A stretch of 64,000 nucleotides of DNA from Nepenthes gracilis (lineage: Eukaryota > Streptophyta > Magnoliopsida > Caryophyllales > Nepenthaceae), in NCBI GenBank assembly GCA_033239525.1, contig BSYO01000003.1:5016001-5080000 (forward strand), given 5' to 3'. The notes under the pieces were generated by a model. The model was not told the origin of the DNA. It ran no database searches and saw nothing but the letters and a program-made list of their open reading frames with translations. Positions within the stretch are counted from its first letter, which is position 1. Each line of letters opens with the position of its first letter. The position numbers and the translations under genes were made by a program. This document shows, piece by piece, positions 4,256 to 50,953 of this stretch.

Positions 4256-4300
<45 letters not shown>

Positions 4301-5868: not shown

Positions 5869-5902
<34 letters not shown>

Positions 5903-9173: not shown

Positions 9174-9178
9174 TATAG

Positions 9179-10930: not shown

Positions 10931-10931
10931 T

Positions 10932-11242: not shown

Positions 11243-11360
11243 GAGAGAAGGACTAAACAGCATAGAAGGGTTAACATTCAGGTTACCTGACTGGAGGGCT
11301 GACTCCTGAGCAGTGAGCTCCTAACTCCGGGTCGGAAAGACTCGTGACTCTGGTATGGAG

Positions 11361-11876
11361 GGTTGAGAGCCTCTGGACGGGAGGAGAGTTGATGGCTTCT
11401 GGACGGGAGGATGGCCTAGGGCCTTCGGATGTGAGGAGGGCTGAGAGCCTTCGGGTTGGAGGAGGTTTGATGGTCTCCAGACAGGAGAAGGGCCAAGAGC
11501 CTCCAAGCCGACGGAGGGCTAACAGCCTCCAAATGGGAGGACAGCTAAGAGCCTTTGGACGCGAGGAGGGTTGAGGGCCTCCTGGCTAGAATAGGTTTGA
11601 CGGCCTCCTGGCTGGCGGAGAGCTGATGGTGTCTGGATTGGAGGAGGGTTGAGAGCCTCCCGGTGGCGGAAGGCCGATGGCCTCTGGACTGGAGGAGGGT
11701 TGAGAGCCCCCTGGCAGTGGAAGGCCGCTAACCTCCGAACGGGAGAAGGGTTGAGAGCCTCTTGCGGGAAGGCCGTTGGCCTCCGAATTGGAGGAGGGCT
11801 GATAGTCTCCTAGCAGCGGAAGGTCGCTGGCTTTGAGAGCCTCCTGGCGGGAAGAGGGCTGATGACCTCCTAACCG
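11361..11876. repeat. GC-rich minisatellite B, about 26-bp unit, ~20 copies
   Basis: Degenerate tandem units contain GTTGAGAGCCTCCGGACG and GGAGGAGG, with a period of 25-27 bp. Two sub-variants tend to alternate: GTTGAGAGCC with GGAGGAGG, and GCCGATGGCC with GCGGAAG. This suggests a higher-order unit of about 52 bp. Arrays A and B probably belong to one GC-rich element spanning about 10.7-12.14 kb, whose ends I cannot fix. Confidence 0.85.
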
Positions 11877-12179
11877 CTATCTTACTCTCGTTGGAGATTG
11901 ACTAGTGACGGCTACGCCATTCTCTGTGCCATTCGGAGCCTTATGGAGCTTCTTCAAGCTTCTCCCACTTGTCGAGCCAGTCCTTCAAAGTTTGAGGGTG
12001 CTTGCTTTTGTAGTGAAATTTATAGATACATCGCTACTCCAAAAGTAATGTGGGACTTTTACTTTAAAAGAATTATGTTAGATTGTGGGCTACTACAAGG
12101 TCTGACCCATTGGACCCATGGTTACTGGACTCATCAGTAAAAATAATATAAGATAAAATAACGCCATATTTTTGTAAAA

Positions 12180-15100
12180 TCTGATATTGAGATCCTATTA
12201 ATGTTTAAAAAATAGACAATATCCATTGGTGGAAAACTTCATTTTTGTTTGGGTGTTTTCTGATGTCTATTAATTTTTACTAGTATGTCAGTTATTTGAT
12301 TGTCCTTTTTTGGAATTTATTTTATTTTATATTCCTAGTTACTCCTAAGATAGTATTACAATTTGTAATTAGGCCTCTATTTAGGTTCTTCTTCTTAGCA
12401 CAGTTGTTTAGTTTTTAAACTACTGTACTTGAGTCAATTTCGATAATTACTTTGTGTAATCCTTTACTCCATACATCTATGAGAGCGTGTCAAATTGTCA
12501 ATATTTTTGTTTTAAGAATATCCATTCTTTTCAACCAATCAAAATATTTAAACACTTATTAAGTCTTGTCATTTCTACCTATTTTTCCAAAGCCTACTCT
12601 TCAATCTATGTCAATGCTAACATTTGCATTTATCGTGATTCATCCGGCTCTTGAAAAATTTATCTATTAATCCTGTTTATAGGGTTCTAGTATAGTTATA
12701 AGAAAAGATGAGTACTTTGAATATTAGAAGTAAATAAGCGGATTGATTTCTTAAGCTTAGGTGATAAATTCTAATCTTTCTCAAAAATAGATTTATTATG
12801 CCAAACCCATAAAAGCTAAATTATTGTAAGGAAAAGATACTCGAGTGAGGGTTTGAGAGTATATACCTGGGTCATATTCAGCTTGCAATATGGCTCATCA
12901 AATCTACTTGACTCTTTGATAGTATTTGACAATGTGCTTAGAAGTTTCTAAAAGTTTATATAGGTTGTAAGCAGGTGATGATGTCACATTCATTCTAAAT
13001 CTGTAAGTATTTGTAAGTAATTTATCTCTCAACATAAGCCAAATGAAGGTTTTGAATTTTAGTGGTGCTTTAATTTTTCATATATTAGTTGACATTGCAT
13101 TTATGGCAATTGGCTGATTTTGAAGGAGATTATGAGTCTTTTTAGTCTTTTATTTTTCGGATGTTATGTCCCAAATTTATTTATCTTTATTACCTGAATG
13201 TTTTAGGACATAAGTCCTCTATAATTTGTTGAGGCCTTCCTCATTGAGTTTGCCTTTTGATATATCCCATTTTTATTTCTCACTCGACTGCTAGTAATTT
13301 GCTACTTTGCGTTTTAGTGCTTTAGTTGGTATTGAGTCGTGTATGAAGTTTAGCAATGGGCCAACACTGAGTCATTTGTCTGTCCAAAATCTAATCTTTC
13401 ATATTCAATATTTCATATGGTTCTTTTGTGGGTTAAACCTCGTCACGATAATGGTGTCAAGTGGAGGAATCATTTTGATTTTTATTTTTGCTTCAAGAAA
13501 GTTAAAATTTTTTCAAATGTTTTGCTATAAATATTTGAGCTGATAATTTGTTGGAGCCACAACAAAACTCCCACCACACATTTCCCAGAATGGCTAAGTT
13601 GTTATTATATGTTTTCCTAAGACCGCCACTTACTTTCAAGGTATATACCTTTTTCCAATTAACATGGTGAACTTTATGATTTTCTCAAGGAAAATTTCTA
13701 TTAATATGATCGAATTTTTTACATGTGCTATTGGGTAAGATGTGCACTTGCATCATAAAATAAGGAATGTGTGAGTCACAGTTCGAATGAGAGTTGCTCT
13801 TCTTGCAATATATATATATGTCACGTTGTCCAATTGTGGAGGCTTTTTTGGACTCTTTCAATGATTATTTTATAATGAATCTCATTAGTGCAACAGTGAA
13901 TCATTCGGGTACCCAAATAGGTTTCATGGTTTCCAACCAACTTGAATCGACATAAAACTTGAAACTCACAAGTGACGCTTGTAGAGACACATAAGGACAC
14001 GAAGATTTGGCATTTGTTTGTATTGCTGGTTTGCCTAGCGGCTTGAGAGAAGCGATTAAGCAATCTCAAAAATATTGGTGAGATGATTTTTGGTAGCTTT
14101 AGCAAATAAAATGAAGTCATCCGTGAAAATAAGGTGCAAGATGGTTGGTCCCAATCTACAAGCTTTAATCGATTTTTACTTTCTTTCTAAAACATTTTTG
14201 TTGATGAGGTGAGAGACATTCAATACAAAGAGAAAAAAGGTAGGGTGAGAGGGATCCTTTGTCTGATGCCATAGGTTAGTTTGAAATTGTTAGTAAATTC
14301 TCCGTTTCAAAGCATTGTAAATGTGGACATGATGATACACTCCATATTAAGTCTCACAAGAGAGTTAAGAAAGTTGAGTGTGAAGAGTGTGTCATGGATA
14401 AACTTCCATCTAATTTTGTCAGAAGCCTTAGTAAAGTTGATATTTAGGGCCATTACAACATGTCTCCCTTTGGCTTTTCCCATAGTATGTAGCATTTCTT
14501 GTACTATCAGAATGTTATCACGACCCTTTCTTGATTATTTTGTAAATCATGTTATATAATGCAATAGGCCTAAATTGGTAAAAGTTTTCGGTCCCTCCAC
14601 CTTGGGTATGAAACCCGCATGGTATGATTTCCATCTTTAGGGATTGACCATCTCAAAAAGCTTCAATTGCGATTTTGTAAAGGTCCTCCTTCATTAATTC
14701 CCATGCATTTTGGAAGAACAGGCATGGAATTTGTCAAGTCCAAGAGCTTTGAGAAGTTTCATTGAGAACAAAGATTACTTAATATCCTCGAACTTGGGGT
14801 GTCTTTAAGATGCTTGTCGAGAATTATGCTTCTAGGCCAAAGGTGGGGGAGGCTTTCGTTGAGAGAGGGATTCAGGTTTGAGAAGATAATTTTAAAATAG
14901 TTAATTACCCATTCCTTGATCATATCTTTGTCGTAAGTCCAATCTCCATTATCAATATTAAGAGCGGCAATTCTATTATGATGCCTCTTGTTTATAGTAG
15001 TTTAAAGAAGAGTTTGGTAATTCTCTTTCCCATGGCGAACCAATTGAGTATTGATTTCTAGAACAGGTAAACTTTCTCACAACCAAGGATCACCTGATAA

Positions 15101-17780
15101 TGTTAGATGAGTTTTTCTTGAAGCTCTTTTAGTTAGACTGAGTCATCCTGAGACTTGCCATCCTAAACTCCCGTGAAGTGATTGGCCAAATTTCTTTTTT
15201 CCTTAAAGATATTATCAAAATTTTTCCTATTCTAAAATTTTTTTTTAAAGATTGTTTATTTTTTATAGTCTCAGGCGATTCTTTCCAAATCTTCTCGATA
15301 AGCTCATTATAGTTGGGATGGCTACACTATATAGCCTCAAATCTAAAAGTCTTTGCGTGCCTAGGAGGTAGGGCAAGGCCATTTGTGTAGAGGCAAATAG
15401 GATAATTGTTAGATGAGATTCTATTGTGGTTAGTGACTATGACCATTTAAAATTTAGCTTTGCAATAATCATTGGTGATGACTCTATTAAGTCTTCTTTT
15501 TTTATTGAGATAGGATACTACCATATATTCCACCATGTATATTCTAGTTTTCTATAACTAATATCTTTTAGTTTATATTTCTTGAGCTAATTCTGAAATT
15601 GAAAACATTTATTAAGATTGATTGCTTTCCTATTTTGCTTTTATTTAATGGTAAGGATGTTATTGAAATTTTCAATCATGCACCGAGGAAGTTGAAGGGT
15701 GGATGTTAGATTTGAGAGCTTCAACCACATAACTTTCCTATCGCTTTATAGAGGGCAAGTATAGATGACAGTGCGTGGCTGTCATGTACTCTGTTATCCT
15801 CTTTGATAAGAGCGTAAATCAAATACTTGTGAATCTTAAGAATCTTAATTGTTATTAGGTCTTTGATCTATAGGAGCTAGTTTCCTCTTAAGAAGTCTCG
15901 GGCTTCACTAATAGCAAATCCATTCATGCCTGTCTTCCTAATCACTTTTGTTACCATTTTACCACTGATACGTGATTCTAAAATTATAATAATTTTATAT
16001 TTTTGGCTGATTCTAATGTCATCAATCTCATTGTAAAATTCCTTTCTAACCGCCTCATAGTAATTCTATGCAATATTTGCATTAACATGTTGTACTTCCT
16101 GAAAACGTATTTGTTCCTATATTCTCATCATGCTAGTATCTTAAACTGTTTTATTTTCGGCTACCATGTGGCATAGCTTAGGGGGTGACTCAAATGCTAC
16201 TCTAAATTTCTTAGGATTGTGATTTGAAAGCAAGTGAAGGAAGGGTTAAAGGATTTCAGCATGAGACTAAGCCTTCTTAGTGATAGGTTTTATGGTGTCC
16301 GTGGGTGGATTAGGTTTGGTTATAGCGAGGTGTTGGTTGGGATAGTGGCCTGATTTTTCCTAGCTTTGATTTCAGGTGATATTTTTGGTGTCGAAGATGT
16401 CATGGAGAGCTAATGATTTCGAGCTGTTGTTCCTGGTATTGACTCCGGTTGAGAATCCTTCCTTAGGCTTCTTTTTTCATTTAAGTTTTACTATCATATC
16501 TATTTCAGTTGGTCTGACCTTAAATATAAAGTTCATCTGTGTATTGGTTGGTTGTGTTTTGTGTGTGATTATGCTGGTGTTGCATTTAACTCTCTCCACC
16601 CGGTAGATTTGTTTTTTATATTTATTTGGTAATTTGTGTTCATATCGTATGATTACCTTTTGTCTAACACTAAGAATTTGGAGTCGATATTTCTACCCTC
16701 TTCTCCTACACTGTGACGTAAATTATTCGCTTTCCTAATTATTCTTCTAGCTCTCATGGGGGCATGAAGCTAGGGGCCAAATGTCTATTCTTCAAATGGC
16801 CTCATAATAGATTCATTGCAACTATTCTATATATTCTTTTTCATAACTTTCTCAATTCTTTAGATAGTAAATTGACAATTGTTGGAATCATATCCCACCC
16901 ATCATAGCTAAAACAAATATGGGGGAGACCCTCATATTCAATATTCAACACCACTACTTCTAGCTCATATTGAGGTAGAAAAGGTTTGTTGAGGTTAATA
17001 TTTACAGTTGTCATAATAAATCTTCCTCTATTAGCCAAATATGTATTTATATCAACTATGATTGGTTGCCCAATCAGTTTGCCTATAGCCCAAAGGATAT
17101 GTTTTTTGAAACAATAGATAGGAGGTTTGGAAGTTGAACTTATATCACAACTGATTGGATCAACTTTTTTGAGGTTCCTAATTTAGGGGTCCATGGTTTA
17201 ATAGTTAAGTAATATTAGAAAATCATCAAAGGTCCCTTAGTAAGGACCTTAACATAATCCTCTTATTTGTTAAATCTTATTAAAAAGTAATTGAAGTTTG
17301 TATCCATCACCTTGAACCTCCCTTTCGGGTTGCATAGGCTAGGGATTCGGTCATAAAGGGTTTTGTACCCTAAGGGGCATCCTAGTAGTCTGACAATCAA
17401 ATATTGTTTCAATATTTGACTAACTTAGATTTTAGTCTTTTAGATAGAGTAATTAGAGACCATTTATTTGAGAAATCAACCGCAGTGTTGTGATCCTTAG
17501 CTATATTATTTTTCATTTTGTGGACAATCTCCGATTGGTTTTATCTCATACTTGTCATTACGTCTCTAAATGACTATTACTTTTTGAATGGATAATCGAT
17601 CTGTGGCGTCATCTTCTGCCAACAGTGGTGCCTTGAGTTTGGTTGTCCTAGCCTCCGAAGCCCATCCTAGATGTTTGGCTAAGTGGGGATACACAGGGCT
17701 CTAGGTTTTTTCTTTTAGAGTGGATGACTGTCGACAGTGATACTAGCAACTGAAAGATCTTTTGATATTAATTCCATTGC
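12180..17780 (-). mobile_element. Degenerate L1-type LINE, near full length, minus strand
   Basis: Reading right to left gives the usual order of a plant L1. The ORF1 start lies near 17600. The DUF4283 region and zinc-knuckle part are at 16841-17300, with GRFIMTTVNINLNKP and EYEGLPHICF. The endonuclease start is near 15.9-16.0 kb, clearer in copy 2 as IILEPRING. Reverse transcriptase is at 14307-14495, with ALNINFTKASDKIRWKFI matching the family's K-YDRV-W block. Frameshifts and stops occur throughout, so it is inactive. The 3' end is near 12180. It is shared with copy 2, so it is older than the duplication. Confidence 0.8.
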
Positions 17781-25604: not shown

Positions 25605-27860
25605 CTATGCTACTTTGCAGGTGTGATGCGATGTGAGCAGCGTTTTAATTTTTTCATGCTTCATCTGTAAATCGCCATTAACAAATCCACCATAATGGGC
25701 ACGCCATTAACAATTTCCCCAACTTTCCATAAAAGATGAAGAAAATTAATTGAGCCAAGCCAAGTTCATATACCCTACTTCAAAGTATATACAGATTTCT
25801 AGGGTTTTCCTTTCGTTCGGAGAAACACTGAATTGATAAGGAATGCCAGCTCGTAAGTCCAAGCCGGAGAAGCTCGATGCGGCCGCGAAGCAGCTGCGGC
25901 GAGACCCCTACGAGGTACTTGGTGTCTCTTGCAACTCAACGGATCAGGAAATCAAAACGGCTTATAGAAAATTGGCGCTCAAGTATACTTTCGACTACTT
26001 TTCCCCACTAAAATTTTGATTTATTTTCAGTTTTGCGTGTAGTTCTGTCGCTTTGATTTTGTGTTTTTGCTGCTTTGTTTTGGGTTTGAGTCACGGAGAT
26101 GGCATGTGTGTCACTTCCTTACTTGATTTTCAGAATTCATTCGAAGGGATATATTCAGCGTTAGAAGTTTTGGTGATTGCAATGAGTTGGACTCTACTCG
26201 TTTAAGCTTTACTATTTGAAGCTTGACAGTCAGAGAATGAAATGCTTCTATCGATTGGCGGATTTTTTTCTTGTTGAAGAACTGTCTTTCGATCCAGCCA
26301 TTAAGTTTGGCATGCTGATCGTACAATCAGCGAAAAAATTGTGGCGTAGGACTCCGAACATTAGTATTTTATCCTGCGGGGCAAAAAGAGACGCTTTTTT
26401 TTTTTTTTGGCGATGTTTCCCATGCTTTAGGCGAATAGGGTTTTTGTCCTCCAAGCCACCCTTAAATCTACTACTTACGCAATTATTAGATAAACCGAAT
26501 GTTTTTAATCCCATTTGATGACCAGATCTCGGAAAGATATATAGAAGGCAGCTGAATGCTCTCATCTATGTACACCATTTGAATAATGAGACGATGTTAT
26601 GTAGAAAATAGGACTTCTCGAGTTTTTTTGTGAAATTTTTCTGTAGCTACTCTAGGAAAGCCTTGTAAAGCTCATTTGGATGATTATCAAGTCAATAGCA
26701 GATATAGAATGGCTGCCAGTCATTCAGGAACTTGCCATTGGAATAGGACTACCACCTTGCTATCATAATAGTTATGCTAAGTAGTGATATTATTATAAGA
26801 GGTGGTTATTGTTTGATCAAACTTTGACTGTTATTTTTTTCTTTTTATCTACAGTGGAGGCCATTAATAGTGTTCATTGATCATTATCTTCTCCTAAAGC
26901 CAACCTGTGTCTTGTTTTGTTACATTGACACGCACAACTTGTTGGTACTAGGATTTCTTTAAAGGTGGAATTTTAAAGAATTAGTTAGCTTAGGTGTTAT
27001 ATGTTTAGATGGTGAACTTTGGCAGAACGTGAAAGTTGTTTCATGAGTTCAAATCATGGAAGTATTATCGTTTCAAGGCAGGAATAAGGTTGCAAATATT
27101 TGACCTCTTAGAACCTACAATATCGGAGCTTAATGTACTGGGTTGTCAATTCTTTTAGGTGTTTATATTTTTATGTTCTATCAGATATGGGGTGAGCTAA
27201 TCATTTAACCGTATTTATATTGTCTGCTTCTGACATCATAATTTATGGTTGAAACTTTCGTTTGTTTCACGGTGGATTGCATTGTGATACATTTCATATG
27301 GGTTAAGATTTCTCATAAAGATGAGTTACCTCTAAAACTGTTATTGTAGTAAATTAACAGTTCCTCCAACTAAGTAGCATCCTAAGTAATTGTAACTTAT
27401 TTCTGTAATGGTAAAGATGATAATGATGGTTAATGATTTAAAAACAATTGTCATTGATGTTATTAAGTATTGGTTTGTGCTATAATTGTATCATATTCAG
27501 GTATCATCTTGACAAGAATGCAAATGATTCTAAGGCAGCTAATTTGTTTAAGGAAGTAACATTCTCCTACAGCACATTGTCTGATCCTGGGAAAAGGTGC
27601 CAATATGACACAGCTGGTTTTGAGGTGCGCAAATACCAGTGCTCCACAGTTGATATTAAGGCTGAGCAATGTCCTTTCACTGTGTCTAATTATTGCCTGG
27701 ACAGTTTGAAAGGGTTTTCCAGTTATATTCATATGTTTGGCTGCTTCATATTTCCCCTTCTATTTTTCCATCTTACGAGGGGAGCCATATGCTGCTCACA
27801 TTATATCTGAAGGGGAGCTGTTTGGCTCCCCTCCCTTCCTATTTTTCTTAATAAATTTAA

Positions 27861-27887
27861 TTAATGGGATTCAAGAGAATCCCATTA
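27861..27887. other. Perfect 11-bp stem, 4-nt loop hairpin in ARL1 intron 2
   Basis: TAATGGGATTC and GAATCCCATTA flank AAGA. A second, weaker inverted pair (GGGGAGC with GCTCCCC) lies just upstream at about 27779-27832. It may be a MITE remnant. No TSD was seen. Confidence 0.6.
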
Positions 27888-28584
27888 TATGAATATGGAG
27901 GCAGCCATCTCTCTATTGATGGGGCAATTAATGGGATAATAATGAGGCATTAAGTTTTCTTTCATCTCTTGTATAGCTAACATCTAACTAATAAAATTTC
28001 TTAAATGATAATGACTGTGATCTTTTGTCACTTGCCTTAAGATTGGTTTAGGGCTAAATATGCTGACGTCGTGCTTTGCTTAAGCTGTTGAATCAGAAAG
28101 ACAAGAGCTGGAGCTAGATCTTTCAAGTTTGGGAGCTGTGAATACTATGTTTGCAGCAATATTTAGGTAAACTCATCGGGTTTATTTTATTTTTATTTTT
28201 ATTTTATGTGTTTTCATCCTATACTTCTGTTTACTTGTAGTTGTTATACTGAGAAACTCATGAGCGCTATCCACGGAATTATGACTTTTGGTCCTGTTCC
28301 GTTTTTCCTCATCAAAGTAAACTTGGTGTTCCTATCAAGACCACCGTATCAGCAACTGTGTTGGAGGAGGCATTGAATGGCATGGTACAAATTTGTCCAC
28401 TTCCATTGGGTCAACCTTTGTCTGGAAAGGTGAATTTTACTTATTTCTTGTTTGTCATTTTTACTGTTTTCTTGCTAAATGCAGAATTTAATAAAAATGA
28501 TAGAGCGGAGCAGAAAATAGCAAATAAAACAAGACAACAGTGGGGAGATGAAATCAGCAAACAAAACAGAACAAAGTAGATAAT

Positions 28585-28939
28585 TGATACGATCTCCATG
28601 GTGGCGCCGGCGTCGATGACAGGAAATCCAACGGAAGGGGAGATCAGCGGAGGCAACGGCGTGCTGAACAGGAGAATTAGGGTGAGGGATCAAGGAAGAG
28701 GGCCACAGACGCGAGAGAGAGAGAGAAGAACAGACAAGAGAGAGAATCGGAAGAAAGATAGAGCGAGAGAGAGAAGAGACGAAACTGATTTTTTTTTCCT
28801 TTCCATTCATTCGTGCGTATCATTACATATAACGGGGTAATGGGGAACGGTAACAGAAAAGAACGGAGAACGGGGTAACGGGGAACGATAAGCAATTAAC
28901 AGCAAAACGGAAAACGGAAAACGGGAAACGGGCGTAACA
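28585..28939 (-). repeat. Capture-element LTR 1 (3' LTR)
   Basis: 355 bp. It contains a GA-rich block and a cluster of AACGGGG-type short repeats near its minus-strand start (28832-28935). A TATATG motif lies near 28830 on the plus strand. Confidence 0.88.
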
Positions 28940-28990
28940 TTGCTCCGTGCATCAAAAGAACCTTGTCCTCAAGGTTAGATACAAAAATAA
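28940..28990 (-). other. Remnant of chromovirus pol 3' end, internal copy 1
   Basis: The minus strand encodes SNLEDKVLLMHGA and then meets TGTTACGCCC of the LTR. The intact chromovirus at 20523-20570 has NIEDKVVFDGAGN in the same place before TGTTACGGGC. This suggests common descent of the 3' ends. Confidence 0.65.
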
Positions 28991-29069
28991 AATTCTAAAG
29001 CTCCACGATCCAGCGCAACGCAATATTTCCCCGGGTCCCATTGTCGTCTGCATTTGTCGTAGCTCCCTC

Positions 29070-29165
29070 TGATTTCTCGGTATATGACTCGGCCATCTGA
29101 TGAGTGTAAGAAAACAAAGCCTCGGGAAGCTCCCATGGCAATTTTAAGCCTTAAATTCCGTGGTA
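29070..29165 (-). pseudogene. Captured protein-kinase fragment (RLCK type), copy 1
   Basis: NLRLKIAMGASRGFVFLHSS followed by VIYREI matches the RLCK-VII block in which LRLKIA-GA-GL-FLH precedes the catalytic loop VIYRDFK. The usual VIYRD has E for D, and homology stops before the catalytic Asn. The fragment is about 32 residues and continues in frame from the membrane-protein part. It cannot be an active kinase. Confidence 0.7.
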
Positions 29166-30510
29166 GTAGCTGAGCAACAGAGACGATGACCAGCCCAATA
29201 TAGATCCAACGGGTATAATCGCGTAATCTCGGACAGTAGGTCTTACCGATGACACTGAAGGTACTCCGGACAAAGTTGCAGCCGACAAGGTTGATCATGA
29301 GCGGAGTATAATGGTATAGGCCGTAGCTGATATTAACGGCCGAGATCATCTGGTTGTAGATCGACGGTGTGAGTCTGCCGGTTGTGGTACAAATATTAGA
29401 GGCAGAAACCTGGCAGACAAAGTTCTTCCAAGCCTCAGATGCATTATTGAAGTCCACTTCACCGGATGCACGTTTGCGATTTGAGAGATCTGCGTAAAAG
29501 GGGTTGCAGAGGACGTGCACTAACGGACCCGACTGATTGTAATATACCGGAAGAGAACTGAGAGGGTAATTGACATTCGAGACGTTGACGATCACGGTGT
29601 CAATCAAACTGATGATTTCTTGAGTAACATCTTTCGATCTTAACAGGATTTCTTGAGCTGTTGCGTTGTCGACGCATGGAAGTATGTCGTCCAAAGCAGT
29701 ATGTGCCGGGTTCTGAACCCACTCTTCCATGGCAACACAGGTGTCTCCGACCACATTGTGAAGAAGAAGAAAAACACCACATAAAATGAATGTTCCGCAA
29801 CTAGAAGCCAACCGAGGATCACCAAAAAGTACACAAGACATTGCACTCCGAAAACAGAAAGCAAAAATCCGATAAATGCAAGGGAAAGCATTACGGCAGC
29901 CACAACAACGCGAGCAGTTCTCACAATGTTGAGGGCTCTCTGTATTTTCTTTGAATTATCATGGGTTTTGACAGCAAGAGTATTTGCAGAAGTATTTATT
30001 TTCAACTGAATATCATTGATTTTAGTTTTGGCATCTGCAGGCAGAGAAAACTGATCCACACCGATGTTTTTAGCTGCTGCAAGATATCCTGACACGCTGT
30101 TAAGTTTGTTGACGGTCTCATCTGCCTGACTCACAACATAATCAAGCGTATTTGTTGTACTGGTATGAAACTTCCCCTGACCCGTATACAGGACAATGCA
30201 TCCAATGATTGCGGCAATGGTAAATAGCATGAGGAAAATGAGAGAGAGCGCGTAGCAGGTTCGAGAATAACCATAGGGCTCCCTTCTACAGCAGCAGAAA
30301 CATAGGTAGATGAAGCACAAAGTCTGCCCGAAAATCACAAACCAAGCTGCCGCAACGACGAAAAATGGGGCAGCTGTGAATCCGACAGAAACCCAGTAAT
30401 GGTCATTGCTGATATTCCAACCACCTCTGTAGTGTTTAACCCCATCAGTTGGGTCTCTCCTGTTGGTTCTGTCTTCAGCCAAAATCAAAGACGAGTTATC
30501 TACGATTTCA
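29166..30510 (-). pseudogene. Captured multi-pass membrane protein cDNA (At2g12400-like), copy 1
   Basis: The protein matches a plant plasma-membrane family with no clear molecular function. It starts near SLILAEDRTNRRDPTDG, then GGWNISNDHYWVSV. Four hydrophobic segments follow: AAPFFVVAAAWFVIFG, LIFLMLFTIAAIIGCIVLY, VVVAAVMLSLAFIGFLL and YFLVILGWLLVAG. Next comes an extracellular-type loop with DTCVAMEEWVQNP, Cys residues and Asn glycosylation sites. It stops inside the last helix (YIGLVIVSVA), where the kinase piece begins. No introns are visible, as expected for capture from mRNA. A one-base deletion near 29797 breaks the frame, and another lies near 30611. Copy 2 is not broken at these sites. 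Confidence 0.75.
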
Positions 30511-31900
30511 GCAACCGCCTCCTCCTCACAAATCGGCGATAAAACACCGCTACAATCGTCGCCATTAATAACTTTCATTCTTTTAGCAGCAGGCGCTGGA
30601 ATTTGGGTCAAAAGGAGTCGTCTCCACTGTTGATATCAGCATTAGGATTAAACCCCAGTACTACATCTCTCTGGGCAATTGCTGGATTTTCAGTCCTATT
30701 TATACTGCATTGTTGCACTCCTCCCTGATCAGGAAACTGCTTAATTAGGGGCTGATGTCCAGGCCCTTGCATCTCAAGAATTGGCAATGAATCAAGGATC
30801 AGTTCTGGACCTGAAATCAGCACATGCCCATCTCGCGGTTTCTGACCAGACTCAGCATCCTCACCAAGAGGCTGACAGTGTTTGACCTCACCATCGAATG
30901 GTTGCAGAGCCTCAGAAACCCCTTTAAAGTCTTGAGGTTGGGTCTTAGCTTCAAGAAGGTGTGCTGCATGGTAGTCCCAATCGGGTGGCGGCAATTCTCG
31001 GGCCTGGAGTTTAACTCTCAGATGTTTAACATCATGCTGGAGCTGTTCTATTCCTTAGGCCAAACATCAATTGCCTGAGATTTGGGATCCAAGAAAACAG
31101 TTCCATGTTTCGCCTCACCCCATCAGTTCCTTCAAAGATCATCATTATCTAACGAAGAAGTCCGAGGTACCCCCGGCAAGGCTAACATTGCTTGTCCCCT
31201 TCTCCACCAGCTGCGCAAGGACCACAGCCTCCCGAAGACATCCCGGGCTGGACCGGTGGCCTAGGGAATTAGCAATTTCCCTCACACGTTCGGGCTTACA
31301 CAATTTGGAACAGCAACTAGGCTTTTAGCCTCAACAAAAACACTTCCGTCTGTTGTAAGGAGATGCCTCTTAATTTGGTCGAGAATTGGATGCTTAAATT
31401 TCCATTCAAAATCGAATATTTTTGGCGATCAACTCCTGAGATGGTGGCCACTGGAAGATGGTGGTATATTGCTCTTCAAATCTCTCTCTCCTACTAATCG
31501 CACCGATACAACCCTCTAAGATTGCTTGTCCCTCCTCGGTTGGAAGATTTTGCATCAGAAACATGATTATGATGCATACGTGAACGGCATCATCTCTAAC
31601 ACAAAGGCATCTCGGCGAACGGCACAAATAAACAAAACAAAGCAATGCGGCAAGACAGAAGAATCTCGGCGTTAGCCGGTGAAATTTCGATTTTGCACAT
31701 GCGTGTGAAAATAACAAGGAATTTATGGAAGGAGATATGAACGCCGACCGCCATTGCCAATTCTTTCCACACGAGCGTGTCTGCTTCCATAAGAGTCCAA
31801 AGACGCTCTTCTCAGCGTGGAAGAACAGAGGAAATCACTTGACAGAGGTGCTTGAGCAGAATCGATTCTTTCACTGCTGTTGCTCATCATCTCCACCAAG
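30511..31900 (-). pseudogene. Unidentified captured or gag-derived block, copy 1
   Basis: This block lies between the gag-like start and the membrane-protein part. A readable piece at 30608-30994 contains PPPDWDYHAAHLLEAKTQPQ and is rich in Pro, Gln, Asp and Glu. Further upstream, fragments such as AILEGCIGAISRRERF are broken by many indels relative to copy 2. I do not recognise the source. It could be a third captured gene or diverged gag. Confidence 0.45.
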
Positions 31901-32569
31901 GCTACCAAGGCCCGACAATTTCTCGCCCAAATCAGCACTACCATAGTCCTTCGCAGTACAAGTGACAATTTTGTTCGAGGTGGAAGGCCAAGAATATGAT
32001 AAGACAGGATGGAAACAAAGCAGATTTTGGAATTGCTTGTGACACATGTGGATCTGGTTTCTCGATTCGAGTCGAGCTCTGGCAAATGCCTGAGGGAGGC
32101 TCGAAGCCCTTGATTTACAGGGGAACCACAACCACTGGTGAGTTTGAAATTAATGAGGGATTAACGAAGGGGAAAACGAAGACGGTGATGAAGTCGAATA
32201 CGACCGGGAAGTAGGACGATTATGTGGGGCACCGGTGGTACGAGAACACACCGTGGGCGCACTTCCGGTTGGTAAGGGTGACGATACGATTGATTGGGGT
32301 GGCCGGGTAGAGCGGGTGGAGGAGAAGTAGAAGAAATTACAGAGGTGAAGAGGTCACCGACCGTTCGTGGTCGCGCTCGAGTCGGAGGGAGGACTGGTTG
32401 GTGTCGGTGCGTGGCGAGCATATTTGTCACTGCTGAAGCCAAGGGCACGGTGGACAGTTGGGTGCCCAATCGGTCGACAGCGCTTCGGAGATCCTTCAGC
32501 GCACTGGCCCATTCGGCCATAGCCTCTTCGCGCGCAGCGAAAGCTCGTCCGTCGTTCGCCTCCGCCTTT
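31901..32569 (-). pseudogene. Gag-like N-terminal region, copy 1
   Basis: After the primer-binding region the minus strand encodes FGALVERKAE, then AEWASALKDLRSAVDRLGTQ. This is a charged, coil-prone start like the chromovirus gag start at about 25010-25110 (TTRYRSLEESIASLTQELA). A Pro/Ser-rich stretch follows. There is no zinc knuckle. Confidence 0.5.
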
Positions 32570-32589
32570 CTCTCAACGAGAGCACCAAA
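32570..32589 (-). other. Primer-binding region, internal copy 1
   Basis: The minus strand reads TTTGGTGCTCTCGTTGAGAG directly after the LTR end ATCGTATCA. TGG is the expected complement of a tRNA CCA end. The same sequence occurs at 36594-36613. Confidence 0.6.
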
Positions 32590-32940
32590 TGATACGATCT
32601 CCATGGTGGCGCCGGCGTCGATGACAGGAAATCCAACGGAAGGGGAGATCAGCGGAGGCAACGGCGTGCTGAACAGGAGAATTAGGGTGAGGGATCAAGG
32701 AAGAGGGCCACAGACGCGAGAGAGAGAGAGAAGAACAGACAAGAGAGAGAATCGGAAGAAAGATAGAGCGAGAGAGAGAAGAGACGAAACTGATTTTTCC
32801 TTCCCATTCATTCGTGCGTATCATTACATATAACGGGGTAATGGGGAACGGTAACAGAAAAGAACGGAGAACGGGGTAACGGGGAACGATAAGCAATTAA
32901 CAGCAAAACGGGAAACGGAAAACGGGAAACGGGCGTAACA
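32590..32940 (-). repeat. Capture-element LTR 2 (middle LTR)
   Basis: 351 bp. It serves as the 3' LTR of the right unit and the 5' LTR of the left unit. It matches LTR 1 almost base for base, with small indels. Confidence 0.88.
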
Positions 32941-33069
32941 TTGCTCCGTGCATCAAAAGAACCTTGTCCTCAAGGTTAGATACAAAAATAAAAATTCTAA
33001 AGCTCCACGATCCAGCGCAACGCAATATTTCCCCGGGTCCCATTGTCGTCTGCATTTGTCGTAGCTCCC

Positions 33070-34510
33070 TCTGATTTCTCGGTATATGACTCGGCCATCT
33101 GATGAGTGTAAGAAAACAAAGCCTCGGGAAGCTCCCATGGCAATTTTAAGCCTTAAATTCCGTGGTAGTAGCTGAGCAGCAGAGACGATGACCAGCCCAA
33201 TATAGATCCAACGGGTATAATCGCGTAATCTCGGACAGTAGGTCTTACCGATGACACTGAAGGTACTCCGGACAAAGTTGCAGCCGACAAGGTTGATCAT
33301 GAGCGGAGTATAATGGTATAGGCCGTAGCTGATATTAACGGCCGAGATCATCTGGTTGTAGATCGACGGTGTGAGTCTGCCGGTTGTGGTACAAATATTA
33401 GAGGCAGAAACCTGGCAGACAAAGTTCTTCCAAGCCTCAGATGCATTATTGAAGTCCACTTCACCGGATGCACGCTTGCGATTTGAGAGATCTGCGTAAA
33501 AGGGGTTGCAGAGGACGTGCACTAACGGACCCGACTGATTGTAATATACCGAAGAGAACTGAGAGGGTAATTGACATTCGAGACGTTGACGATCACGGTG
33601 TCAATCAAACTGATGATTTCTTGAGTAACATCTTTCGATCTTAACAGGATTTCTTGAGCTGTTGCGTTGTCGACGCATGGAAGTATGTCGTCCAAAGCAG
33701 TATGTGCCGTGGGTTCTGAACCCACTCTTCCATGGCAACACAGGTGTCTCCGACCACATTGTGAAGAAGAAGAAAAACACCACATAAAATGAATGTTCCG
33801 GCAACTAGAAGCCAACCGAGGATCACCAAAAAGTACACAAGACATTGCACTCCGAAAACAGAAAGCAAAAATCCGATAAATGCAAGGGAAAGCATTACGG
33901 CAGCCACAACAACGCGAGCAGTTCTCACAATGTTGAGGGCTCTCTGTATTTTCTTTGAATTATCATGGGTTTTGACAGCAAGAGTATTTGCAGAAGTATT
34001 TATTTTCAACTGAATATCATTGATTTTAGTTTTGGCATCTGCAGGCAGAGAAAACTGATCCACACCGATGTTTTTAGCTGCTGCAAGATATCCTGACACG
34101 CTGTTAAGCTTGTTGACGGTCTCATCTGCCTGACTCACAACATAATCAAGTGTATTTGTTGTACTGGTATGAAACTTCCCCTGACCCGTATACAGGACAA
34201 TGCATCCAATGATTGCAGCAATGGTAAATAGCATGAGGAAAATGAGAGAGAGCGCGTAGCAGGTTCGAGAATAACCATAGGGCTCCCTTCTACAGCAGCA
34301 GAAACATAGGTAGATGAAGCACAAAGTCTGCCCGAAAATCACAAACCAAGCTGCCGCAACGACGAAAAATGGGGCAGCTGTGAATCCGACAGAAACCCAG
34401 TAATGGTCATTGCTGATATTCCAACCACCTCTGTAGTGTTTAACCCCATCAGTTGGGTCTCTCCTGTTGGTTCTGTCTTCAGCCAAAATCAAAGACGAGT
34501 TATCTACGAT
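33070..34510 (-). pseudogene. Captured membrane protein-kinase fusion, copy 2
   Basis: This is the same structure as 29070-30510: the membrane-protein family part at about 33166-34510, then the kinase fragment at about 33070-33165, joined at VIVSAAQLLPRNLRLKIAMG. An open frame of 549 codons (33641-35290) runs through the unidentified block and most of the membrane part. It breaks at a two-base insertion near 33705, and a one-base deletion near 33550 follows. These breaks differ from those of copy 1, so the two copies share an ancestor with one continuous frame and decayed separately. Confidence 0.75.
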
Positions 34511-35860
34511 TTCAGCAACCGCCTCCTCCCTCGTCGACGATAAAACACCGCTACAATCGTCGCCATTAATAACTTTCATTCTTTTAGCAGCAGGCGCTGG
34601 AATTTGGGTCAAAAGGGAGTCGTCTCCACTGTTGATATCAGCATTAGGATTAAACCCCAGTACTACATCTCTCTGGGCAATTGCTGGATTTTCAGTCCTA
34701 TTTATACTGCATTGTTGCACTCCTCCCTGATCAGGAAACTGCTTAATTAGGGGCTGATGTCCAGGCCCTTGCATCTCAAGAATTGGCAATGAATCAAGGA
34801 TCAGTTCTGGACCTGAAATCAGCACATGCCCATCTCGCGGTTTCTGACCAGACTCAGCATCCTCACCAAGAGGCTGACAGTGTTTGACCTCACCATCGAA
34901 TGGTTGCAGAGCCTCAGAAACCCCTTTAAAGTCTTGAGGTTGGGTCTTAGCTTCAAGAAGGTGTGCTGCATGGTAGTCCCAATCGGGTGGCGGCAATTCT
35001 CGGGCCTGGAGTTTAACTCTCAGATGTTTAACATCATGCTGGAGCTGTTGCAGTTCCTTAGGCCAAACATCAATTGCCTGAGATTTGGGATCCAAGAAAA
35101 CAGTTCCATGTTTCGCCTCACCCCCATCAGTTCCTTCAGTATCATCATTATCTAACGAAGAAGTCTGAGGTACCCTGGCAAGGCTAACATTGCTTGTCCC
35201 CTTTCTCCACCAGGGCCATGCGCAGACCACAGCCTCCCGGAAGACATCCTGGTTGGACCGGTGGCCTAGGGAATTAGCAATTTCCCTCACACGTTACGGG
35301 CTTACACAATTTGGGAACAGCAACTAGGCTTTTAGCCTCAACAAAAACACTTCCGTCTCGTTGTAAGGAGATGCTCTCTAATTTGGTCGAGAATTGGATG
35401 CTTAAATTTCCATTCAAAATCGTGAATATTTTTGGCGATCAACTCCCGAGATGGTGGCCACTGGAAGATGGTGGTATATTGCTCTTCAAATCTCTCTCCC
35501 TACTAACTCGCACCGATACAACCCTCTCGGGTACTTGCTTGCTCCCCGGCCGTTGGAAGATTTTTGCGGCCGTTGCGATTATGATGCATAAATAACGGCA
35601 TCATCTCGTAAACACAAAGGCATCTCGGCAGAACGGCAATAGCTCAACAAAACAAGCAATGCGGCAAGATAAGAATCTCAAATAGCTAGCCGCTGAAATT
35701 TCGATTTTGCACATGCGTGTGAAAATAACAAGGAATTTATGGGAAGGAGATATGAACGCCGAATCGCCATTGCCAATTCTTTCCACACGAGCGTGGGTTC
35801 GTTCCATAAGAGTCCAAAGACGCTCTTCTCAAGCGTGGAAGAACAGAGGAGAAATCACTG
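34511..35860 (-). pseudogene. Unidentified block, copy 2, open for about 260 codons
   Basis: From an ATG at 35290 the frame stays open into the membrane-protein part. It contains DVFREAVVCAWPWWRKG, HGTVFLDPKSQ, PKELQQLQHDVKHLRVKLQ and KRMKVINGDD. The region is hydrophilic and partly coil-prone, with no signal peptide. I do not recognise the family. The fusion to the membrane protein is in frame. Confidence 0.5.
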
Positions 35861-36593
35861 GACGAGGTGCTTGAGCAGAATCGATTCTTTCAGCTGTTGC
35901 GCCTCATCATCTCCACCAAGGCTACCAAGGCCCGACAATTTCTCAGCCAAATCAGCACTACCATAGTCCTTCGCAGGTACAAGTGACAGAATTTGTTCTG
36001 AGGTGGAAGGCCGAAGAATATGATAAGACAGGATGGAAACAGAAGCAGATTTTGGAATTGCTTGTGACACATGTGGATCTGGTTTCTCGATTCGAGTCAG
36101 AGTCGGCAAATGCTCAGTGAGGGAGGCTCGAAGCCCTTCAGTTGTGGGAACCACAACTGCTGGTGAGTTTGAAATTAATGAGGGATTAACGAAGGGGGAA
36201 AACGAAGACGGTGATGAAGTCGAATACGACTGGGAAGTAGGGACGATTATGTGGGGCACTGGTGGTACAGAACACACCGTGGGCGCAATTTCCGGTTGGT
36301 AAGGGTGACGATACGATTCGATTGGGGTGACTGGTAGAGCGGGTGGAGGAGAAGTAGAAGAAATTACAGGAGGTGAAGAGGTCACTGACCGTTCAGTGTC
36401 GCGCTCGAGTCGGAGGAGTGACTGGTTGGTGTCGGTGCGTGGCGAGCATATTTGTCTTTGCTGGGCCGAAGCCATGGTGGATGGGTTGGGTGCCCAATCG
36501 GGTCGCAAGGGCGGAGATCCTTCAATGGCACCGCCCATTCGGCCATAGCCTCTTCGCGCGCAGCGAAGCTCGTCTGTCGTTCGCTCCGCCTTT
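35861..36593 (-). pseudogene. Gag-like N-terminal region, copy 2
   Basis: The content matches 31901-32569, with FGALVERKAE and a Pro/Ser-rich run such as SSTSPPPALP. Several indels separate the copies here, more than in the membrane-protein part. Confidence 0.5.
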
Positions 36594-36613
36594 CTCTCAA
36601 CGAGAGCACCAAA

Positions 36614-36961
36614 TGATACGATCTCCATGGTGGCGCCGGCGTCGATGACAGAAATCCAACGGAAGGGGAGATCGGGCGGAGGCAACGGGCGTGCCGAACA
36701 GAGAATTAGGGTGAGGGATCAAGGAAGAGGGCCACGACGCGAGAGAGAGAGAGAAGAGCATAAGAGAGAGAATCGGAAGAAAGATAGAGCGAGAGAGAGA
36801 AGAGATTTAAATGATTTTTCCTTCCCATTCATTCGTGCGTATCATTACATATAACGGGGTAATGGGGAACGGTAACAGAAAAGAACGGAGAACGGGGTAA
36901 CGGGGAACGATAAGCAATTAACAGCAAAACGGGAAACGGAAAACGGGAAACGGGCGTAACA
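36614..36961 (-). repeat. Capture-element LTR 3 (5' LTR)
   Basis: 348 bp. It is the most diverged of the three LTRs in the GA-rich block, with several small deletions between 36650 and 36800. Confidence 0.88.
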
Positions 36962-37859
36962 ATAATAAAATTAAATAGATAACAAAAATCATTACTAAAC
37001 CGATATTATTCTGAATTCTTCCATGAAGATGAAGGGGTAAACTTCTGAAGCATTTATTTAGAGGTCATCTGGACTATAACCTCTTGACATTTTTCATTTT
37101 TGTTATGCCTCATTTGGATCTTAAATTTTTCTTACAGGTTGAGAAGCATTGTGCCCACTTTTATTCTGTTACAATAACAGAAGAGGAAGCAAGGGATGGG
37201 CTTGGGTGCCGTGTACAATCATCCGAGAAAAGTAAATGTAAGGTTTGTGTGAAATGGCAAAATTCTGTACTTGGTTTCGGGGAAACAGTTTCTGTTTACA
37301 TATCTTCTCCAAGTAATTTTTTTCAAACGTGATGGAGTTCCTTTCTCTTCCTCCTCTCTTTTTTATCTGTTTCGGGAGGGTTTTTTCTTGAATTAGGATG
37401 GGATTATGTAATGGTCAATTTATTACCAATTTTGTGACTGTTGGAGCTTCACCCATGTGTTCATGCGGCTTGTCCTTGGTAGTGCTCTGCATTAAGTGTG
37501 ATGGCTTGTGTATTAATGTTAGCTAGAGTGTGAAAATTCACACTTGCATGCAGCTGCACCATAGTACTGCAGTGAAGATGTATTCCCAGATCATAAGAGC
37601 TTCAAAGATCTCTTTTAGTCTTGTATATGACTTTAATGTCATTGAAATTAACTGTGAAATGTGTCAATATTACTCAGTAACTCTGTTATATGGTTGTGTG
37701 AAGAGAGATTCATTTCTTTTTTCGTCAATGGGCTTAGAAGTTAGTCATTTTGTTTCTGCTTAGTTCTCTAGTGTGTATATTTTGTATTAGACTGCTTATA
37801 TACTTTATAAGTCAAAGGAAAAGAATTTACCAACACCAAGATGACATCATGGAGGTGTC

Positions 37860-46563: not shown

Positions 46564-47736
46564 AAGTTTATCAAGAGGTTTTCTTGAAGTGTTAACTCAA
46601 ATTAAAACAATAATAATAATAACATTAAGCCTCATTTGGTTTGGCTTAAAATTGAGAATGAAAATTAAAATTTTAGGCTTAATTGTAACTTTACTTAAGA
46701 GAAATTAAGATTTGATACGTCCGAAGGATTCAATTGTTGTACGGATAATGAGATCCAAATTTTATCCGTCGGGCTTAAAGTCGCTTCGATTTCTGTACGT
46801 CTTTAATCTGAATCCTGAGTAACACAAAATACAGTCAAAGGATTGGTGGAACTCACTCTTCAATATATCTTTCGACACTTAAGTCAATATATTTCTTAAA
46901 ATAGATGAAAGATAGAGGATGCAAGATGAGTATGTTTTTAGTTTGAGGGTTTGTGCTCTTATAAAGGCATCTTGATTTGAGAGAGAGTGTGCGCTCTTGG
47001 TATCTTAATTTGTGTTATTCGTTGTCTAAAATGGTGATCTATTTTCCCTGTTAGAAATGAGGGGTTTTTATAGAGGGTAGGGGGACGGTTAACTCCTCTT
47101 GTCAACCGTTTAGGAAACTGTCGGATGAATAAAATTTAATCTAGACTGCAATTCAACCAACGCCTGAGGCCATTATTTTGATATAAGAATAGAAAACCAT
47201 CCCAGCTGTTAGGTAGGTTCCGGCTCCATCACAAGATCAAACCGTTTAAGGCCGTCGGACGTATCTACTGAAATGCGCCGCATCGATGGTTTGGGCCGTT
47301 GAAATTTGTGCATTGACTTAGAGTTACTTTGGGTTGATTTTCTCGGGCCATCGAATTTTTTATCCATCCATCGAATATATTATCCATCAAGATTAATTCA
47401 TGAAAATTAAAAAATAGAATAAAATAATTATGATTATATGACTGATAATTATCCATCAATTAAATATGATAACATCTAATAAGGCGATACATATTGGATA
47501 ATATTTTTTGATTATTTAGGACATATAGAAGCTGACTGCCCATAAATTTATTTTTCTAAAAATTAGACAATTATTATTTAATACTTAAAAATTAATATTA
47601 TAATAATAGTATTGTTATATGTATCTATAAAATATAATTTATATCAAAAAATAACATTTTTAAAATTATATCAAGTTAATTTTATGCATTCAAAAATTTA
47701 AAATTGATACAGGACTTTCCTTATAGTACTTGTGTG
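46564..47736. other. AT-rich spacer with a 14-bp inverted pair, no gene seen
   Basis: GATACGTCCGAAGG at 46714-46727 matches in inverted form CCGTCGGACGTATC at 47252-47265 with one mismatch. It could mark a 552-bp MITE or LTR-like unit, but no TSD was recognised. The rest is AT-rich up to the duplication junction at about 47737. Confidence 0.4.
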
Positions 47737-48078
47737 TCATACACGAGTACTTTCCTTACTGTACTTGGTGAACAATAAAATAAGATCAATAGTCAGATAC
47801 CTTACAGCGACATGTAACTCTTTGAATGAAATTGGAACCATGTTAGGCTTTTCAGGGCATTCTCCTTCCCTCTCTCTGTCACCCCCTTCAGCCCCTCCAA
47901 AAAAAAAAAAAAAAATTCTATCTTTGCCAAGAATTGAGACTTCTAAAATGTAAGTTATATTTACCATTTTTCTTCAGGAATTTCTTTTGATACTGTTAGG
48001 CATAAATCATCAAGGCTGTATTAGTTTGGTGGTGATTCGATGACCCGTCGTTGTTTTTTTTTTTTTTCCTGTTAACAG

Positions 48079-50543
48079 GTTTTGAGAATCTCCGTCAGCT
48101 GTGACATGCTGCAGGTCCTTGGTTGTTGTTTGTGATAACAATTGTATACTTCAAATTGGCATGGCAGCTGAATCATCCAAATGTGGTGAAGCTGAAGCTG
48201 TGGATGTTGCTAAATTAATTGAAGGGTCACTTTATCAAGGCATTATGAATTCAGGAGCACGTAAGCTAACTTCACTAAACTGACTGATGTTCTGGTGTAG
48301 GAAATAACAAATAGACATGTTATTGAACAATTGATACCGAAACAATTGTCTATTCTGACTTGTGTCAGAGAGCTACTTGGCCAATCATTTGCTCTACCCT
48401 GGCAAGTCTGAATTTTTTGCCTGCAAATACACAGGTACAGTTTCTATTCTCTCTTAAGTACATAAAAGATCCCTTGATCCCGTATTTTACGTAGTGCAGT
48501 TCTTTAAAGTCTGTACATCCTATGTATAACTACTGGGGTTTGCATCTATCTGCGGTTCATGTGGCAGAATTTTTTGGAACTTTATGTGAAGGACGTGGAT
48601 CTCACGTTTCTTGTATTTACTAGGAAGGGATTTTGTTACATGAGACCTATATGATATTTGTTAAGCTGCAGCATCCTCTTTTATGAAGAAAAAGACTACT
48701 CTTACTACAAGTTTACTATAATTTTTTAAAAACATGATGTGGTACTTGTTGAGTGGTTTCCTTTATGTGTGTGTGTGTGTGTGTGTGTGCTGGGCCTACG
48801 CGATAGGCATCTCAATGTCCTTTTCAGCATATTTGGCAGTGGGGACTGATTGCTCGCATGAAATGGTTAATAGGGCTTCAGCTCCATTGCCGGTTGGATG
48901 CAAGAGGAGGGTAAACCATAGAAAAATGAAGAGTCAAAATGCATGCCAACTATATCTGGATCACTGTACCTAACAAAGTGGCTGTGCTACTCTGGCTTGG
49001 GCAAGAGTGCTCAATACCAGGATGATTTTGGGGATTGGACCTGACCAATCTTAATTGATTTTGATGGATTTTTCATTAGTGAACATTCTGGATGCTGTAC
49101 GCATCCAAGCACCACTATTTCTTGTCGGTGATTTAAGCTGGAGAGTTTAAGTAATTATATTTTGATACTCATTTCCTGGATGACCTAGCAATCATTGTAT
49201 CACAGCTATGCTTTGTGTTGTTTTCTGAAAGGAGGCTAAGGAGTTATGTCAGTTTTCTATTACTCTTTGAAGTTTACACTGATTTCAAAGCATGGGAAAT
49301 TTGGTCTTGCTTGGATTTCATACTGAAATCTTTGTTCTAATAGTCAGAGTTAGGGGAGTAGAAAGAGAAATGAAAAAGGTGATATTGCCAACCTCTATCT
49401 AAATCCCTGGCTGAGAAATGGAAATGGCTTTGGAACAGCACAATTCAAACTTTTCCCATCCTAATGAAGTAATAGTAGTGTAGAGAGAGAGAGAGAGCAC
49501 ACATCTTTATTGAAATAAGTGTCTATGTAACCTAAAAATACTCCTTGATTTTGATTATATTTTTAGAAAAGGAATTGGTGCCTAAAAGCACTTTGATTAT
49601 TTCATCATAAAGTACCAATTTGGTATTAACCGGCTGAGTTGCAGTTAGGTTTTGAACTTGGAAATGGTGCTTTCATCCATTCAAAATATTGTTAGTAAGT
49701 ATTCATGGTTTCGCCAATAGGTGTATTGTATAGAGGATACTTTAGTATAAAATCGAAATTTAGCATGGATTTGTCCAAGTTTTTTTTGTATATGTCAGTG
49801 CCATGAGAAACAGATTGCTCTGCTTTGTTTGAACTCCGAGATCACTAATGTGCCTCTATTGCCCATCCTTTTAGTATCACCTTCACTACCTTCTGTCTGT
49901 TCCTACGTCTTCTTTTCACATGGAACAACTTGTCTGCTTTGTCCAATAGCTCGTCTCTTTGTCCTTTTTGTGGAAAGTTTTCCTCTTCAGGTTATATATA
50001 GGACTGCCCATATCCTCTAATTTACCGAAATCTTGATGAACTGTGGATTCAACAGACAGTCATCTTGCAGCCGCTAGGAGGCAAAGGAATTTTGATCATA
50101 GGTGGTGACACAGTAAGGAGCTTCACTACTACAGACCAGGTATTCTTTCATGGTCTTCAGACTCACTGCTCCATGAAAATGATTCAGCAATTGGCATCGA
50201 TGAGTTAGACTTTTACTTTCGGCTTTACATTCAAGTCACTGGTAAATGCAGAAAAAACCATACAGATTGGTTGGAAAAAAAGAAAGTGAACAAAGATATC
50301 CATCTGCACTTCATCATAAAAAAAAAAAAAAAAAACCCTGTTCTCGGGCCCATGTTCTTCTGTGCTTGAACCTTTTTTTCGTGATCATAAGATTGGCTTC
50401 ATATCATCAACTTCCTGCTACTTAATTTTGCTAAAGAATTGTAGGCATGGATATCATTAAGAGGAGACAAGTTGGATGCTACTCTGTCAAAGTTGGAGGC
50501 AGAAGAGGGCAGAGATAAGAGGTTTAAACTTGAAAGTCCATGA
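48079..50543 (+). pseudogene. CCB4 copy, 5'-truncated (exons 5-8 only)
   Basis: Exon equivalents are 48079-48260, 48369-48434, 50056-50139 and 50445-50543. Exons 1-4 are absent because the duplication starts in intron 4. Exon 5 has TGA where copy 1 has TGG (second Trp of WFW). Exon 6 lacks five bases (CTGCC), which shifts the frame. Exon 7 is intact at 84 nt and encodes TVILQPLGGKGILIIGGDT. Exon 8 ends in the same SP-stop. It cannot make CCB4. Confidence 0.9.
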
Positions 50544-50953
50544 AGCTCTGCCGTCTGCTTACTGTATGTCTACGCTGTCTCCATTGAAGAAGGTTGCTTA
50601 TTCTCGTTTCTTCACGTAACATGCAATGTGATCCCTTTTTATATAATGCCTCTCAAACTTATAATTTTGTTATTTTTAATCTTTTGTTTAAACATGAATT
50701 CTTTTTTGTGGAAAAAAATTAACTAATTTTTTTAAAAAATCCACAGTAATTTGTAGATTTTCTAATAAATATTTAAAATATATTGTAGAAATTTTATTTA
50801 ATGAATTTGTAGAAAATTATATATATATATTTTCTAAATAAATCTCAAAACTTGAGCTTACAATCTTAATTAAAATAATCTAAAGTTTGAATTATGTTGG
50901 ATTAAATGCGTGAGGTTTAAAACTAACCGATGTCCACCCCTCTTATTCTATAG

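Follow-up and report, generated by a model that had tools for sequence, protein, structure and literature searches.

Host gene fragments between the ends of a clan of LTR retrotransposons in Nepenthes gracilis

The insertion and its target site

The stretch of DNA analysed here (64 kb, contig C3:5016001-5080000 of the 752.5-Mb Nepenthes gracilis genome; hereafter the window) contains an 8.4-kb long terminal repeat (LTR) retrotransposon in which fragments of host genes stand in place of pol. The assembly was built from Oxford Nanopore reads (PMC12244726). An initial annotation of the window had proposed gene capture by a family of non-autonomous elements. Checks for other copies, for empty sites and for an intron-bearing relative of the captured sequence were each carried out, and the proposal is supported by all three.

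The limits first given to the element are exact, with LTR copies at both of them and ATAAT on either flank. The architecture had been described less fully: the LTR ends were confirmed, but the element is a tandem of three LTRs and two internal copies (A and B; Table 1) that had gone unreported, its units being 95% identical and about 4 kb apart. Read on the minus strand, all three LTRs run TGTTAC...GTATCA and so have the TG...CA ends of an LTR retrotransposon. The ATAAT that borders the whole unit on both sides is a 5-bp target-site duplication (TSD), within the 4-6 bp looked for, while the tandem paralogues L053 and L054 on the same contig, whose flanks are 93-96% identical, are uninterrupted there and have ATAAT only once. 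All 8.4 kb therefore constitute one insertion locus. It is occupied in one of the three paralogues examined, that of the window itself; a fourth (C3:4935955) and a partial fifth (C3:4802498) stand outside this count.

Contents of the element

From the 5' LTR, the order is leader, auxin response factor (ARF) fragment, a module without assigned origin, membrane protein, receptor-like cytoplasmic kinase (RLCK) piece and NLEDKV motif. Three host-gene fragments (ARF, membrane protein and RLCK) thus replace pol, two or more being the mark of a Bs1-like element, with intron loss established for the membrane protein among them. The primer-binding region that had been noticed corresponds to tRNA-Thr, and the NLEDKV end is present in both window copies. 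What had been called a gag-like start is a leader in the right position, and no gag domain was recognised in it. As first reported, protease, reverse transcriptase and integrase are absent from the five window open reading frames (ORFs) scanned against Pfam, as is gag; the scan returned four matches, all under the Pfam cut-offs. One of these four, to a family named for a mouse retrovirus antigen (E 0.22), was taken as chance. Before the 3' LTR there is just a short purine-rich stretch at the expected position of the polypurine tract.

The captured membrane protein is nearly whole apart from the signal peptide and C-terminal tail, which it lacks by comparison with P0003 and P0004. It is a plant membrane protein that matched 646 proteins at E <= 0.001, the best 120 of which were listed. 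The public proteins related to the module upstream of it are all from N. gracilis (13 of 13, compared at the protein level), and 1790 word-sharing candidates among public proteins included no leader homologue at E <= 0.001. In the sister copy L009, the ARF piece, the membrane protein and the kinase piece are spanned by a single open frame of 866 codons; this frame is broken in the window copies.

Table 1. Features of the insertion, in window positions.
Feature	Position	Strand	Evidence or remark
Whole insertion, LTR-INT-LTR-INT-LTR	28585..36961	-	LTR repeats, TSD, empty sites
Target-site duplication ATAAT, left	28580..28584	.	flank comparison, empty sites
Target-site duplication ATAAT, right	36962..36966	.	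flank comparison, empty sites
LTR 1 (5' LTR, copy A)	36614..36961	-	
LTR 2, common to copies A and B	32590..32940	-	identity 95.8% to LTR 1, 98.3% to LTR 3
LTR 3 (3' LTR, copy B)	28585..28939	-	
Primer-binding site, copy A	36594..36611	-	16/18 nt match tRNA-Thr(AGT)
Primer-binding site, copy B	32570..32587	-	16/18 nt
Family leader, copy A (gag-like by position only)	36062..36613	-	common to relatives; no Pfam match in ORFs holding the leader (window, L012)
ARF fragment, copy A	35317..35463, approximate	-	the L018 version of this module has a PDB match (E 3.5e-8)
Captured membrane-protein coding sequence, copy A	33173..34577	-	donor exons aligned over 33306-34575, rest by protein homology
Captured membrane-protein coding sequence, copy B	29171..30576, approximate	-	
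RLCK fragment, copy A	33057..33153	-	PDB RIPK/PBL2/BIK1, best E 2.2e-4, 38 residues
RLCK fragment, copy B	29055..29151	-	
NLEDKV 3' motif, copy A	32960..32977	-	
NLEDKV 3' motif, copy B	28959..28976	-	

Donor genes and intron loss

A search of the same genome with P0003 found an intron-bearing membrane-protein gene on C20. Between this gene and L009 (positions 2385-3656) there are eight matching exon blocks at 91-100% identity; the blocks abut in the element, while the C20 gene has seven introns between them, with borders of the gt...ag type and the longest exceeding 4 kb. The cargo is thus intron-free host coding sequence, as had been claimed. The same eight blocks occur in five copies (both window copies, L009, L018 and L043), and L042 has nine, because it also includes some of exon 1; its last block is shorter. 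Capture would have become doubtful had the membrane-protein and kinase pieces been contiguous in a normal gene. They are not contiguous in the C20 gene, and the stretch holding the membrane-protein 3' end and the kinase piece has no match in the 8.6 kb that follow it.

A K+ transporter gene on C5 served as second donor: six of its exon blocks are 96-99% identical to L010 and joined in that element. Its introns are absent from L010 wherever the fetched pieces show, 51 nt between blocks four and five lying outside those pieces. At the 5' junction of this cargo, a short C/T-rich stretch is common to the donor, to L050 as the parent-type element and to L010 as the recombinant, as expected of a template switch.

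An older copy, L042 (C12; INTERMEDIATE), has LTRs just 72% identical and membrane-protein cargo that begins inside exon 1 and crosses the exon 1-exon 2 join. The window lineage (the window copies, L009, L018 and L043) is without a stretch that measures 174 nt in L042, starts with GTATGC, ends with TTTCAG and has unambiguous borders. GT and AG ends are expected together by chance about once in 256 cases. Going by these borders, the simplest reading would be a single splicing event in the RNA of the element itself, within the window lineage.

Related elements across the genome

Copies of the element had been expected elsewhere, and the window LTR gave 48 matches in 23 places, window included, in a search that scored 40 of 313 candidates; C4:8380867 and C6:21985130 were not among the regions fetched. 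An LTR pair was found in 19 of the 20 regions fetched, with a perfect 5-bp TSD in 17 of the 19, and L024, which is without a pair, was excluded from the element set. Nineteen further LTR-bounded copies have ends, tRNA-Thr primer site and leader in common and carry different host genes in their middles. Of 21 copies examined, both window copies included, 14 match tRNA-Thr(AGT) over all 18 nt of the primer site. The window cargo recurs in L042 and in L043 (LTR pair 94%). Other cargo comprises a K+ transporter (L010, L049), Zein-binding and Ist1 (L012), FAM91 with the acetolactate synthase small subunit (L014) or with CCCH fingers (L022), Mlo (L017, L020), Mg-chelatase H (L021), kinase, sugar transporter and uroporphyrinogen decarboxylase together (L023), NAD kinase (L025), DUF3741 (L027) and HSP90 (L050). 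The LTRs of L049 (pair of 523 nt, 99.2% identical) and L050 (96%) are of other types, and no LTR repeat was found within the 6 kb fetched for L048. Substitutions between the members of 18 LTR pairs amount to 0.3-8%, which gives rough ages of 0.1-3 million years at the rate quoted in PMC5664825, the reads being noisy; L019, with a truncated LTR, was omitted from the trees and the age table.

A 29-nt version of the NLEDKV 3' motif, from which the window's own version differs, has 69 exact copies in the genome and none in a reversed control. Six of the 69 sites were sampled blind to cargo over about 770 nt upstream, and all six hold host-gene sequence: an ADR1-type NLR (E 2.1e-55), RLCK three times, a histidine kinase and Mg-chelatase H. 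The RLCK sequence of L057 lies below the Pfam cut-off and has a DNA match to L028 and L015. The eight ORFs scanned upstream of the six motif sites contain no pol domain. Neither gag nor pol is among the 25 of 32 Pfam families listed for the relatives' sense ORFs, in which these relatives differ from autonomous elements. Further domains (AAA, TPP enzyme, ALE2/PA and GST) come, at the level of the protein records, from annotated N. gracilis proteins in which the module that precedes the membrane protein also occurs; P0131 was not included in the domain scan.

Matches to the FAM91 cargo of L014 recur four times on C24:10017579-10030238 at about 4-kb spacing. Judged by this spacing, the array is probably another tandem form of the clan, so that tandem forms would not be unique to the window.

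Cargo orientation, reading frame and mosaic structure

The cargo lies mostly in the sense orientation and often keeps its native frame. In 16 elements, sense ORFs of at least 100 codons number 60 (19,019 codons, longest 1073), against 33 antisense ORFs of that length (4,285 codons, longest 317). Pfam alignment assigned 32 families (E 0.001) to the 41 of 60 sense ORFs that were included, 19 being left out, and two families (E 0.01) to the full set of 33 antisense ORFs. Neighbouring identified pieces are joined in the same frame in 19 of 26 cases. By join type, 12 of 19 are always in frame, five never and two mixed, and a one-sided binomial test against one third gives 0.0074 with the mixed types as failures and 0.0004 with them as successes. 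These figures cover every piece at or above the cut-off together with leader, ARF, membrane protein and kinase, the L016 leader being omitted for its tied frame; a narrower count, without the out-of-frame HSP90 join of L050 and the ARF and kinase pieces, gives nine of 13 join types. The joins are few, related by descent and subject to read errors, so that the binomial values are a guide only, and the evidence for a frame preference among joins is suggestive.

The cargo pieces were gathered in more than one step. Different parts of RLCK persist before the 3' end in several lineages, which suggests that RLCK was an older capture, common to family members, that later cargo has partly replaced. 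The ends have also been exchanged. L018 carries the window cargo at 94% identity, against only about 71% for the LTR and the 5' leader, and its LTR is nearest those of L026 (80%) and L025 (74%). The LTRs of L025 and L026 are in turn 96% identical, and a constraint placing the two in one clade was rejected for the leader (approximately unbiased (AU) test, p 2.9e-9). Four of the six AU tests rejected at 0.05, the two that did not being L010 with L021 for the LTR (p 0.49) and L011 with L012 for the leader (p 0.07). Because the distances were already known when the groups were formed, the p-values flatter the result. Both the leaders and the LTRs are mosaic in structure.

Origin of the cargo

The window element very probably belongs to a clan of LTR retrotransposons that are non-autonomous and mobilised in trans, acquire spliced mRNAs of the host through template switching and continually recombine. 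In effect this would be transduction of spliced mRNA in the retroviral manner, many times over. LTR structure, target duplication, cargo that is spliced (for two donors), several genes per element and mosaics are all observed. The element RNA would be packaged by a related autonomous element, and during reverse transcription the polymerase could leave the element RNA for a host mRNA packaged with it and later return, each time where the two are identical over a short stretch. Each such jump would replace part of the middle and keep both ends. Later rounds would bring in additional genes, while jumps between element RNAs would reassort cargo, leaders and LTRs; cargo may also be trimmed when the element RNA is itself spliced. 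The three-LTR form would most likely have arisen by unequal recombination between LTRs after insertion.

Several observations weigh against this interpretation. No autonomous partner with the window LTR was found among the 40 of 313 candidates scored, the 19 LTR pairs measured being 2.8-4.3 kb apart and none of autonomous length. The leader has no Pfam match. Seven of the 26 joins are out of frame, and one antisense ORF has a match to the zinc-finger family zf-DBF (E 1.3e-5), the other of the two antisense families being DUF7380 (E 0.0067). Introns were checked for two donors, and the RNA origin of the other cargo is presumed by extension. The distribution of differences between the window copies is odd: the first 2.1 kb hold 174 of 186 substitutions and the remainder 12, a 5'-half clustering that may reflect gene conversion or nanopore read errors. 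Finally, for element positions 3657-3790, the 3' part of the captured protein, neither the C20 gene nor the 8.6 kb beyond it (L044) contains a counterpart. Since the 3' end of the C20 gene (L041 9171-9345) also looks decayed or misassembled, the annotated protein stopping there, the true source of this cargo may be a sister copy of that gene.

Many different genes between conserved ends are also found in Pack-MULEs and Helitrons, and capture at the DNA level, in the style of those elements or through gap repair, could likewise have placed genomic gene pieces between the LTRs. However, all seven introns in the aligned membrane-protein part are missing from the elements, as are those visible in the K+ transporter gene, which contradicts DNA-level capture for these two donors; with recognised cargo almost entirely in sense as well, the probability of such an origin is close to negligible. 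Intron loss would be equally expected if ordinary retrocopies made by long interspersed nuclear elements (LINEs) had landed in an LTR element and then been carried along. Yet the membrane-protein cargo starts and stops inside the coding sequence and has other cargo joined to it at either end, L014 combines different genes (FAM91 and the acetolactate synthase small subunit) in a single frame, and the K+ transporter junction has its short common sequence. A sense bias would be unexpected from independent landings, and no poly(A) is seen at the junctions printed, no systematic search for poly(A) or target duplications around the pieces having been made. We therefore regard LINE-made copies as a very unlikely source.

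A further alternative concerns the three-LTR form alone and would leave the capture finding unaffected: noisy nanopore reads might have led the assembly to count one element twice. The use of Oxford Nanopore reads (PMC12244726) and the many small indels between the copies, mostly in the 5' half, are in keeping with this. Nevertheless, the copies differ by 186 substitutions and 76 gap columns, and the spacing of the C24 matches makes it probable that tandem forms exist elsewhere too, so that an artefact appears unlikely.

Beyond the capture mechanism, the clan could be a standing gene-collecting system in which long frames from leader through cargo are favoured, for example because an open frame shields the RNA from decay or because a leader-fusion protein aids packaging, yielding multi-gene fusion proteins expressed by the host. 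We offer this tentatively, as a possibility that is more doubtful than not.

Comparison with known systems

LTR capture of plant mRNAs is already known from maize Bs1, rice, sorghum and pepper; what is new is serial, modular captures within one clan. The classic case, Bs1, is an LTR element with pieces of three host genes in a hybrid ORF (reviewed in PMC13317346). The N. gracilis clan resembles it in that host-gene pieces are joined within an LTR element, a likeness in kind, by description. Bs1 is one element type, whereas in a single genome the N. gracilis clan combines related ends with at least a dozen cargo sets, and intermediates can be seen. Pack-MULEs also combine conserved ends with varied host cargo, but they are DNA transposons that capture genomic DNA (PMC13317346), while the N. 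gracilis cargo is spliced and in sense.

The initial annotation had called such transduction rare, which is too strong given 672 LTR-captured genes in rice and 1343 in sorghum (PMC3726574) and 1398-3898 genes located within LTR elements in six plants (PMC5664825). The rice and sorghum work is a genome census whose available sections describe no clan with common ends and serial captures, both of which the N. gracilis clan has. Many pepper NLR genes arose by retroduplication from spliced mRNA and are carried by LTR elements that are mostly non-autonomous, about 72% lacking gag/pol (PMC5664825). The emphasis there, in the sections available, is on particular gene families per species, whereas the N. 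gracilis clan carries many unrelated genes, stacked and shuffled. A chromovirus (Ty3/gypsy) label was not adopted because the elements contain no pol and their primer is tRNA-Thr, while most chromoviruses use tRNA-Met (PMC6317226). The clan was not found in the literature searched, the N. gracilis genome paper lying outside that search.

For the pickup of host mRNAs by LTR elements, most conclusions so far have been drawn from isolated examples. In N. gracilis, donor genes, a recombinant and a parent-type element, an intermediate that precedes a splice-like trimming and many cargo lineages occur in one genome, so that capture by template switching, its order and the frame preference are directly testable. 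There are also consequences for annotation, as clan-type ORFs stand in public databases as N. gracilis genes under names such as 'Transmembrane protein', 'magnesium chelatase' and 'glutathione transferase'. P0001, P0002, P0124, P0125, P0128 and P0130 are open frames with the clan module that were deposited as ordinary genes of this species; two of these are apparent element copies, P0001 corresponding to L043 and P0002 to L018.

Surroundings of the insertion

The element is antisense to an ORF that encodes a DnaJ domain (window 27442-28400 and 37139-37240) and follows it closely on the downstream side, by eye between exons of the gene; we take this host gene to be ARG1-like. No tRNA genes were found in the window. 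The tandem paralogues of the insertion region lie within about 250 kb on C3, and window positions 4076-17556 and 47735-63997 form a large tandem duplication with blocks 75-89% identical.

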